From Actinomycetota bacterium (GTDB lineage: Bacteria; Actinomycetota; Acidimicrobiia; IMCC26256; PALSA-610), in contig PLBO01000064.1 in assembly GCA_003134555.1 (NCBI GenBank), forward strand, positions 1-57,735: a DNA stretch of 57,735 nt, given 5' to 3'. The notes beneath the pieces are model-generated. The model was not told the DNA's origin. It made no database searches and saw nothing but the letters and a program-made list of their open reading frames with translations. The stretch's first letter is position 1. Each line of letters starts with the position of its first letter. A program made the position numbers and the translations under genes. Below are positions 36,218 to 39,109 of the stretch, piece by piece.

Positions 36218-36673
36218 TCACGCGATGCGTGCCTTGCTGCGCTCGGGGAGCGCACGGACGACGGGTTGCTGGGCCTGATGCGGGTGGGTCGGCCCGGCGT
36301 ACACCTTGAGCTTCTTCAGCATCTGGCGCCCGAGCGGTCCCTTGGGGAGCATGCGCCGCACGGCGAGCTTGACGACGCGCTCCGGGTTGCGGGCGAGCAG
36401 GTGCTGGAGGCTCTCGCTCCGGATCCCCCCCGGGTACCCGCTGTGACGGTGATACGTCTTCTGCAGGAGCTTGCGCGGTCCGACCGCCAGCTTCGATGCG
36501 TTCACGATCACGACGTGGTCGCCGGTGTCGAGGTGCGGGGCCCAGATCGGCTTGTGCTTGCCCCGCAGCAGGGTGGCGATCTCGGTCGAGAGCCGCCCGA
36601 GGATGGCGCCCTCCGCGTCGATGACATGCCATTGGCGCGTGATGTCGGAGGCTTTGGGGGTGTAGGTACGCAC
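36218..36673 (-). CDS. rplM: 50S ribosomal protein L13
   Basis: The 151-residue protein matches L13: [39 protein letters not shown] and [13 protein letters not shown]. The start is GTG at RTYTPKASD. It heads the rplM-rpsI-glmM-glmS run and has a candidate promoter upstream. Confidence 0.97.
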
Positions 36674-36734
36674 GAGCGGGCCTTCGCGATTGAATGTCTG
36701 AAAGGCGCGCGTAGACAGCAGCGCCGAACCCGAG

Positions 36735-36764
36735 ACAATAGCCGCCCTGGCCGGTTCCCGACAA
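36735..36764 (-). promoter_or_regulatory. Candidate promoter of rplM
   Basis: On the minus strand -35 TTGTCG (36764-36759) and -10 TATTGT (36740-36735) are 18 bp apart, the same layout as the groES promoter. It would give a ~55-base leader to rplM. Confidence 0.5.
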
Positions 36765-36785
36765 CCGGACCTAGCCTCCTGAGCC

Positions 36786-38315
36786 ATGGAACAGACGGCT
36801 ACGACGCACCCCCACCAACTCCCCGACGCCCACCGGGCCGAGGCGGAGGCCGCGCTCGAGGTGCTGCTCGACAGCTCCCTCGACCGGATCGTCGACATGG
36901 TGTGTACCTCGCGTGACGGCGCCTACGAGGCGCTCGCGCACGACGGCCGCGTCGCCTTCCGCCGCACTGCCGACGGCTCGTACGAGCGCATCGCCGTCTC
37001 GGGGCGCGACCCGCTCGCCGACCAGACCACGGCCAAGTTCACGCCCCTGGCCGACGAGCGCGCCAACCCCTTTCCCCACCGGTCGGAGAACGCCTACCCG
37101 CACGCCTTCGATCAGATCGCCCAGCTCTTCGACGCACCGGCCGCGCCGGATCTCTGCGTGCTCCATTCCGCCGCGCACAACTGGGAAGACCAGGGCGGGC
37201 ATCTCGGCGAGCACGGCTCGCTGGGCCTCGTGCAGGCGCGGGCGCCGTTCGTGCTCGCGGGCAAGGGCGTGCGCAAGCTCGGGCTCGTGCCGAGATCGGC
37301 ACGACTCGTCGACGTCGCGCCGACGATCTGCGCGTTGCTCGGCTGCGCGCCCCTCGGCGACCACGATGGCAAGTTCCTCGCCGTTCAGGACGGCCGCGTC
37401 CTCACCGACCTGCTCGACCCCGACGAGCGTCCGCGCACCGTCGTCGGCTTCCTGTTCGACGGCACCAACTCGAACGTGCTCTACGACATGGCCGCGCGTG
37501 GAGAGGCTCCGAATGTCGCGCGGCTCATCGAGATGGGCGTGGCGCTCGGCCACGGCGCGCTCGCGTCGCTGCCGACCGTCACGCTCGCGAACCACACCTC
37601 GATCATCACCGGCGCGCACCCCGGTCATCACGGCGTCCTGAACAATGCGTGGTACGACCGCGCGGCCGCCGAGCAGGTGATCACGAACTCGTCCGCGACC
37701 TGGCCGTGGAGCATGCAGCACCTGTTCCCCGGCGTCGAGACGATCCATCACGCCGTGCACCGCACGTGGGGCGACGCGTTCACCGCTTCGGTCAACGAGC
37801 CGTGCGACACAGGCGCCGACTACTCGACGTTCGACTTCTTCCGTCGCGGCGAGGTGCCGCCGATCCCCAAGGATCCGTTCGGGCTCCCGCACACGACCGA
37901 GCGGTTCGTGCGACCGTCGAAGGACTACTCGTGGTCGTCGGTGGTCGACCACATGGGCGTCGATCAGGCGCTCGGCATCATCGCCGGCAACTACCGCGAC
38001 GCGTCCTACCCGACCCCGCGGTTCATGTGGTGCAACTTCACACTCACCGACGCCGCTATGCACGAAGGCGGTCCCTATTCGGAAGTCGCGGCCGCGTCCG
38101 TGCGCGACAGCGACGGCCGCATCGGCGAGATCCTGTCGGCGTTCGAACGGGCCGGGGTGTTCGACGAATGCGCGTTCGCGCTGGTGGCCGACCACGGGAT
38201 GGAACAGAACGACCCGACGTGTCGCGGCGACTGGGACGTGGCGCTGAGAGCCGCCGGGGTCGAGGCCCGCGACGAGGCGTACGGATTCCTCTATTTCGGG
38301 GTCCCCCGGGGCTAG
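36786..38315 (+). CDS. Alkaline phosphatase superfamily phosphodiesterase with permuted motif order
   Basis: The 509-residue protein carries all expected metal-site motifs of nucleotide pyrophosphatase/phosphodiesterases, but in rotated order. Residues ~119-187 hold what is usually the C-terminal part: [17 protein letters not shown] (His143), [22 protein letters not shown]. Residues ~218-475 hold the usual N-terminal and central parts: GFLFDGTN (Asp225), [14 protein letters not shown] (nucleophile Thr266), [10 protein letters not shown] (Asp422, His426) and ADHGM (Asp469, His470). No signal peptide is present, so it is likely cytoplasmic. It is the only plus-strand gene from 22 kb to the window end, and its TAG overlaps the truA stop. 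The substrate is unknown. Confidence 0.85.
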
Positions 38316-39109
38316 TAGCCCACTTCCCATAGGCACAGTCCGCGCGGCGGGGCGAGCTGCCCCGCCGCGTCGCGGTCTCCGGCGCGCAGGATCGCCATCA
38401 TGTCGCCGGGCCGGCGCTTGCCCAAGCCGACCTCGACGAGCGTTCCGACGATCGACCGCACGAGCTGCCAGCAGAACGCGTTACCGCGGATCTCGTAGCG
38501 CAACACGCCGTCGCCTTCGTCGACCCAGCGCGACTCGAGCACCCGGCGCGTAGTCGACGAGCCTTCGGGTCCCTTGCGGCAGAACGACGCGAAGTCGTGC
38601 TCGCCGACGAACGGATCGGCGCCGAGGCGCAGCGCGCGCAGGTCGAGGGGATCGGGCACCCACCACGTGAAGCGATCACGGAAGGGATCCGGCGCGCGCC
38701 GGTTGAGGATCGTGTAGCGATAGGTGCGCCACTGCGCCGAGTGACGCGCGTCGAAAGTCGACGGGGCCAGCTCGGCCGAACGGATCACGACCTCAGGGCC
38801 GAGCATCGAGGTCACCGCGGCCTGGAGCCGCCACGGGTCGAGACCGGGCTCCGACAAGAAGCTCGCGACCTGACCCCAGGCATGGACACCCGCGTCGGTC
38901 CGGCCCGCGCAAGCGAGGCGCACCTCGTGGCGGAGGACCTTGCCGATCGCGTGCGCGAGGACGCCGCCGACCGTCCGCACGCCGGGCTGGCCGGGCTGCG
39001 CCGCGAAGCCGCTGAAGTCGGTGCCGTCGTAGGCCACGACCAGCTTGACCTGAGCGGGTCCCGGGCCGGCCGTTGCCGAACCGGAAAGGCCGGCGTCGAA
39101 GAGCGTCAC
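38312..39109 (-). CDS. truA: tRNA pseudouridine synthase A (positions 38-40)
   Basis: The 265-residue enzyme modifies the anticodon arm. The catalytic aspartate is Asp72 in AGRTDAGVHA. Other family features are LVVAYDGTDFSGFAAQP, RHSAQWRTYRY and GNAFCWQLVRSIVGTL. The start is GTG. It closes the ribosomal superoperon 43 bp after rplQ and converges on the phosphodiesterase gene with overlapping stops. Confidence 0.96.
   Translation of the reverse strand: MTLFDAGLSGSATAGPGPAQVKLVVAYDGTDFSGFAAQPGQPGVRTVGGVLAHAIGKVLRHEVRLACAGRTDAGVHAWGQVASFLSEPGLDPWRLQAAVTSMLGPEVVIRSAELAPSTFDARHSAQWRTYRYTILNRRAPDPFRDRFTWWVPDPLDLRALRLGADPFVGEHDFASFCRKGPEGSSTTRRVLESRWVDEGDGVLRYEIRGNAFCWQLVRSIVGTLVEVGLGKRRPGDMMAILRAGDRDAAGQLAPPRGLCLWEVGY

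Follow-up and report, generated by a model that had tools for sequence, protein, structure and literature searches.

The alkaline phosphatase (AP) superfamily is a textbook example of promiscuous catalysis, with one fold carrying out many reactions. The residues of its active site follow a linear order of metal-binding Asp, nucleophile, DxxxH, DH and a late His, with the metal ligands at positions 49, 300/304, 345/346 and 491 and the nucleophile at 89 in SPAP, and with the same elements at 51, 102, 327/331, 369/370 and 412 in E. coli AP (PMC3145672). A 2013 survey of structural outliers records an insertion in phosphonoacetate hydrolase for this superfamily, and no permutation (PMC3779223), and permutation is not mentioned in a 2024 review (PMC11677397). 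Our searches of the literature, with subscription papers mostly outside their scope, likewise found no report of a permuted member, and an earlier report is possible.

Here, we describe a protein, P0001, that departs from this order in that the late His comes first. It is encoded within a 57,735-nucleotide window (contig PLBO01000064.1) from an actinomycetotal draft assembly of 154 contigs. The best Pfam and PDB matches of P0001 are found in the NPP family (PF01663; Xanthomonas [Xac] NPP, 2gsn, and ENPP1 to ENPP7), with which it shares FDG, a Thr nucleophile, an Asn at +21, DxxxH, DHGM, and GxHG; its blocks, however, are rotated, and the unrotated match stops at profile position 226 of 342. 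Among the PafA/PhoK-type (Thr) alkaline phosphatases, the PafA model (NF042991) matches the early block together with the final part of the late block, but P0001 scores 58 bits against an equivalog cut-off of 650, its order is again rotated, and the Lys/Arg pair of the PhoK/PafA monoesterases is not evident. Canonical actinobacterial PF01663 proteins (the 500-residue L129/L108 type and the L110-L114 type) match the rotated P0001 nearly full-length (385 to 413 columns), including its N-terminal subdomain, and unlike P0001 they carry FDG at the N terminus and GDHASL or GGHGST at the C terminus.

A conserved gene in a ribosomal protein locus

The G+C content at the three codon positions of the P0001 reading frame (0.70, 0.49, and 0.91) marks it as a real high-G+C gene, situated in the order rpsI-rplM-[P0001 gene]-truA-rplQ-rpoA. 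It is present in 45 of the 58 genomes of its order, and is carried also by further families of the same class and, outside the class, by at least three families. The neighborhood rpoA-rplQ-truA-[P0001 gene]-rplM-rpsI-glmM is kept in most members of the order and in some others of the class. The P0001-type gene runs there in the opposite direction to the ribosomal genes, and for an insertion into a core translation locus it is unusually stable. The position between rplM and truA (36670-36786 and 38312-39109 in the window) was seen at loci L032-L049, L055, L057-L059, L062, and L063. Apart from the ribosomal neighborhood, the genes flanking 20 loci included no partner that recurs. One relative carries a small gene pair between the permuted gene and truA (L036, 5586-6217), which resembles a ribbon-helix-helix antitoxin and a PIN-domain toxin. 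In locus L047 and in genomes G050, G016, and G046, the permuted protein is divided between two contigs or two frames, which draft assembly or frameshifts probably explain.

Table 1. Features of the P0001 gene and its neighbors (window coordinates).
Feature	Coordinates	Strand	Basis or remark
rplM	36218..36670	-	divergent neighbor of the P0001 gene; synteny
Permuted AP/NPP-superfamily ORF (P0001)	36786..38315	+	ATG start; 509 aa plus stop
Alpha+beta subdomain, residues 14-100	36825..37085	+	AlphaFold2 elements; alignment with L129
GEHG, residues 141-144 (GEHGSLG from 141)	37206..37217	+	H143, predicted third metal-1 ligand
VDVAPTI-helix block, residues 173-186	37302..37343	+	corresponds to the C terminus of the canonical fold
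Linker, residues 187-215	37344..37430	+	between the two profile matches; joins old C terminus to old N terminus
FDG, residues 224-226	37455..37463	+	D225, predicted metal-2 ligand; PF01663 match begins at 219
T266, predicted nucleophile (PTVT motif)	37581..37583	+	invariant; aligned with Thr90 of Xac NPP
N287, predicted phosphate-binding Asn	37644..37646	+	at least 90% conserved
D422-x3-H426, predicted metal-1 ligands	38049..38063	+	invariant; PF01663 and Xac NPP alignments
ADHGM, residues 468-472	38187..38201	+	D469 and H470, predicted metal-2 ligands
YGFLYF, residues 499-504	38280..38297	+	final strand of the chain; corresponds to GFFYL of the canonical relative, in which the chain continues into the subdomain
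truA	38312..39109	-	convergent neighbor; overlaps the P0001 stop codon

Motif order and conservation

An initial annotation of the window, made from its letters alone, had placed the late motifs of the superfamily ahead of the early ones, and both this order and its positions hold (GEHG at 141-144, the block at 173-186, FDG at 224-226, T266, D422/H426, and D469-H470). A search for homologs, as that annotation had proposed, yielded an alignment of 26 diverse sequences, the others being 40 to 75% identical to P0001, in which the motif order is the same throughout. The six predicted metal ligands (D225, D422, H426, D469, H470, and H143) and the predicted nucleophile T266 are invariant, as are G141, G144, S145, Q150, R152, P154, G226, and G471. 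N287 lies 21 residues after T266, which reproduces the spacing of Thr90 and Asn111 in the NPP alignment, and Asn110/Asn111 acts as a phosphate-binding residue in the described enzymes (PMC3145672). The linker at 187-215 varies in length across the alignment, yet is short in all members.

The chain was also said to end about 40 residues after ADHGM with no second GxHG, and we observe 37 residues. In every homolog of the alignment, the chain stops no more than approximately 15 residues from the same GFLYL strand, and no C-terminal GxHG has therefore been missed.

Profile evidence for a circular permutation

On native P0001, PF01663 matches residues 219-477 with profile positions 1-226 of 342 (113.4 bits, against a gathering cut-off of 23); once residues 2-211 are moved behind the C terminus, the match extends to profile positions 1-296. 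All 26 family members match PF01663, with E values up to 0.01. For residues 1-211 taken alone, the match to the PafA model is confined to its end (residues 112-187 aligning with positions 466-538 of 554; E = 0.0058).

The order of the two segments becomes apparent when the P0001 family profile is compared by hhalign with two canonical-order actinobacterial families. In native order, residues 216-473 align with template positions 1-218 of the L110-L114 family (E = 2.7e-14) and residues 128-211 with 327-392 (E = 7.8e-14), and for the L129 family, residues 205-479 align with 15-307 (E = 4.4e-21) and residues 27-180 with 367-503 (E = 2.4e-11). Rotation at residues 200-212 turns each pair into one colinear alignment, of 385 columns with L110-L114 (E = 8.5e-26) and of 413 columns with L129 (E = 9.1e-32), and none of 14 other rotation points tried outscored it. 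In a column-shuffle control (50 shuffles each), the real N-terminal profile scored 93 and 106, while the shuffles reached at most 24. Two non-colinear segments, each occurring once and becoming colinear after rotation, form the pattern that defines a natural permutant, and at the level of sequence P0001 is a circular permutation of the AP/NPP-superfamily order, as the initial annotation had argued. A partial duplication, which it had set against permutation, was rejected, each block being present once.

Comparison with PDB sequences places the late block of the family on the C terminus of Xac NPP, and at 481-523 in PafA. H143 falls opposite the His of GSHG in Xac NPP (chain position 324), in an alignment that by itself lies below significance in that chain; since Thr90 is found at chain position 51, chain position 324 corresponds to His363.

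The same genome contains a PF01663 paralog and a sulfatase, both in canonical order, and the paralog (L149, ORF 907-2484 on the + strand), which ends in HSGHGSLTPDEMLVPLVAAHG, offers a natural control. A tblastn search of plasmids returned matches only to the second half of the query, all of them in canonical proteins.

Predicted structure and new chain ends

AlphaFold2 was run on 19 sequences, comprising the window protein and loci from the contig scan. For full-length P0001 it predicts one confident fold (pLDDT 87.7, pTM 0.91), in which residues 151-190 reach pLDDT values of 90 to 95 and the loop bearing H143 (141-150) averages 55. When residues 1-214 are folded alone, the subdomain (here 14-73) is still confident, but residues 130-177 drop below 50 (block means of 26 to 44). 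In these predictions the late block thus needs the rest of the chain in order to fold, which argues against a separate domain and favors an active site formed within one molecule.

A Foldseek search of the PDB with the full model lists ENPP3, Xac NPP, ENPP1, and phosphonoacetate hydrolase (PhnA) among the first matches, with E values down to 1e-9. Foldseek is a sequential aligner, and it aligned approximately 270 to 310 columns; no TMq above 0.36 occurs in the 50 matches listed, and the target-normalized TM-score to Xac NPP is approximately 0.44. Such limited coverage would be expected of a permutation, although it does not prove one. Among these solved structures neither the permuted order nor a full-length match was found, and no permuted relative was found among viral structures.

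The subdomain is predicted to consist of a helix (14-27) and four strands (36-43, 46-51, 54-60, and 66-73). Its counterpart in canonical relatives sits between DHGM and the late GxHG, and residues 36-186 of P0001 have their aligned counterparts at 363-504 in the canonical L129 family. In L129, the post-DHGM strand GFFYL continues via a helix into 'GIDQVMWRERDGYVV..GRVWF'. P0001 opens with the equivalent helix, followed by a 30-residue stretch, and ends at YGFLYF. This comparison places the new termini at the edge of the subdomain, with residues 187-215 as a new linker between the old ends.

Proposed enzyme and mechanism

We consider P0001 very probably to be a two-metal phosphohydrolase of the NPP/PafA branch of the AP superfamily, built as a single domain with a circularly permuted fold and probably located in the cytosol. 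The old C-terminal piece (approximately residues 14-186, with the subdomain, the GxHG strand, and the VDVAPTI helix) would come first, and the linker of about 30 residues (187-215) would connect it to the old N terminus, leaving the new ends in the loop that leads from the post-DHGM strand to the subdomain. The N-terminal piece would then fold back and contribute H143 to the metal-1 site beside D422 and H426, while D225, D469, H470, and T266 would make up the metal-2 site. T266 would attack the phosphorus, N287 and the metals would stabilize the transition state, and water would release the phosphothreonine.

For P0001 we infer that metals are bound, that the site is catalytic, and that the substrate is of the phosphodiester type. 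Because the two-metal site, the Thr nucleophile, and the phosphate-binding Asn are all in place, the protein is likely to hydrolyze a phosphoryl ester, and the lack of an evident signal peptide in its sequence points to a cytosolic location. Residues 338-344 (EPxDRGA), a putative counterpart of the Lys/Arg region of PafA that no significant alignment anchors, are without a conserved Lys. In SPAP, the active-site residues Lys171 and Arg173 lie beside the Thr and the Asn (PMC3145672). The missing Lys weakly favors a diesterase over a PafA-like monoesterase.

Alternative explanations

The permutation may be real and yet belong to a domain-swapped dimer, with the late block filling in the active site of the neighboring subunit and not that of its own chain. 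A linker of about 30 residues would allow this arrangement, but we regard it as improbable, as the model of the monomer orders the late block at a pTM of 0.91, the N-terminal piece on its own is disordered there, and the linker is short in every member of the family. The permuted fold could also have lost catalysis and persist as a pseudoenzyme that binds or regulates, perhaps in connection with the ribosomal locus, a reading that draws on the fixed place of the gene beside ribosomal genes and on the lack of any clue to a substrate. The six ligands and the Thr nucleophile, however, are invariant down to 40% identity, which is expected only with catalysis or at least metal binding, and we give this role little credence.

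It is highly improbable that residues 1-215 are an unrelated domain whose resemblance to GxHG and VDVAPT arose by chance or convergence, appended to a truncated enzyme. Pfam does mark only residues 219-477, and Foldseek finds no match for a model of the N-terminal segment alone; that model is poor (pLDDT 66), so the empty search shows only that the segment is not an independent AP-like domain. Against canonical C termini the segment reaches E values of 1e-12 and 3e-15, far above the column shuffles, by which a chance similarity of the late block was rejected, and its His is invariant. A separate domain at 1-215, which the initial annotation had named as evidence against its own reading, is disfavored by AlphaFold2, in which the late block is confident only with the C-terminal part and largely disordered by itself. 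An assembly or frameshift artifact, in which an enzyme of normal order has lost its C-terminal GxHG, would be conceivable for a window from a 154-contig draft assembly, but the same order and C terminus recur in dozens of independent genomes, single-contig ones included, and its probability is negligible. The frameshift after 38315 that had been raised as a concern and a missing C terminus were both rejected, since all homologs end at the same strand; in the window, truA occupies the other DNA strand at 38312-39109. The circularly permuted, single-chain phosphohydrolase thus remains our preferred reading of P0001.

Related permuted proteins and the origin of the permutation

We observe a second permuted family of 24 members, distinct in sequence, with reading frames of 560 to 720 aa or longer, in which the late block again precedes the early one. 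Its alignment with P0001 is colinear across 337 columns (E = 4e-28). Its junction is similar to that of P0001, but it is without the N-terminal subdomain and continues for about 110 residues after DHG; as judged by alignment, its chain ends are different. Examples include L104 (2357-based ORF, 682 aa), L105 (560 aa), L122 (687 aa), L121, L124, and L132. Members often occur several per genome, and several have lipoprotein-like signal sequences.

Four large proteins, L099 (1,181 aa), L100 (1,276 aa), L101 (1,343 aa), and L102 (1,389 aa), show a late-early-late-early arrangement. Their outermost parts are P0001-like (late, 79 to 115 bits; early, 157 to 185 bits), and the inner early-late pair is far less similar (23 to 73 bits for its early part, and 13 bits or fewer, if detected at all, for its late part). 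The inner pair instead matches L145, a canonical-order protein of 574 aa that stands alone, at 39 to 50% over approximately 470 to 500 residues, and the best reading of these large proteins has a canonical enzyme inserted into the linker of a permuted one. At least one of them has an N-terminal signal-like sequence, and at least two end in an apparent Ig-like repeat.

In a tree of the early half, the P0001 family groups with the outer early half of the four large proteins (support 97), and under free search the canonical families fall between the two permuted families. A tree constrained to a single permuted clade has a higher likelihood than the free search (p-AU 0.845); a single origin is not rejected, and one and two origins of the permutation both stand on these sequences. 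A route through tandem duplication is plausible. We put forward, tentatively, that the Actinomycetota host a radiation of permuted AP enzymes that arose by tandem duplication of a canonical ancestor, with one fused junction cut at two separate sites to yield the two permuted families and with the large nested proteins keeping the tandem intermediate. This would be a rare natural circular permutation whose route can be read in living sequences.

Implications for the superfamily

The permutant is kept across an order, which indicates that the two-metal site tolerates the transfer of a ligand to the other end of the chain. Annotation based on motifs or models sees only the second half of such a protein and misses a metal ligand. 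The P0001 family also offers a natural system for testing which chain breaks this fold accepts. As a conserved actinobacterial enzyme, it would represent a widespread fold that nature has rewired and retained.
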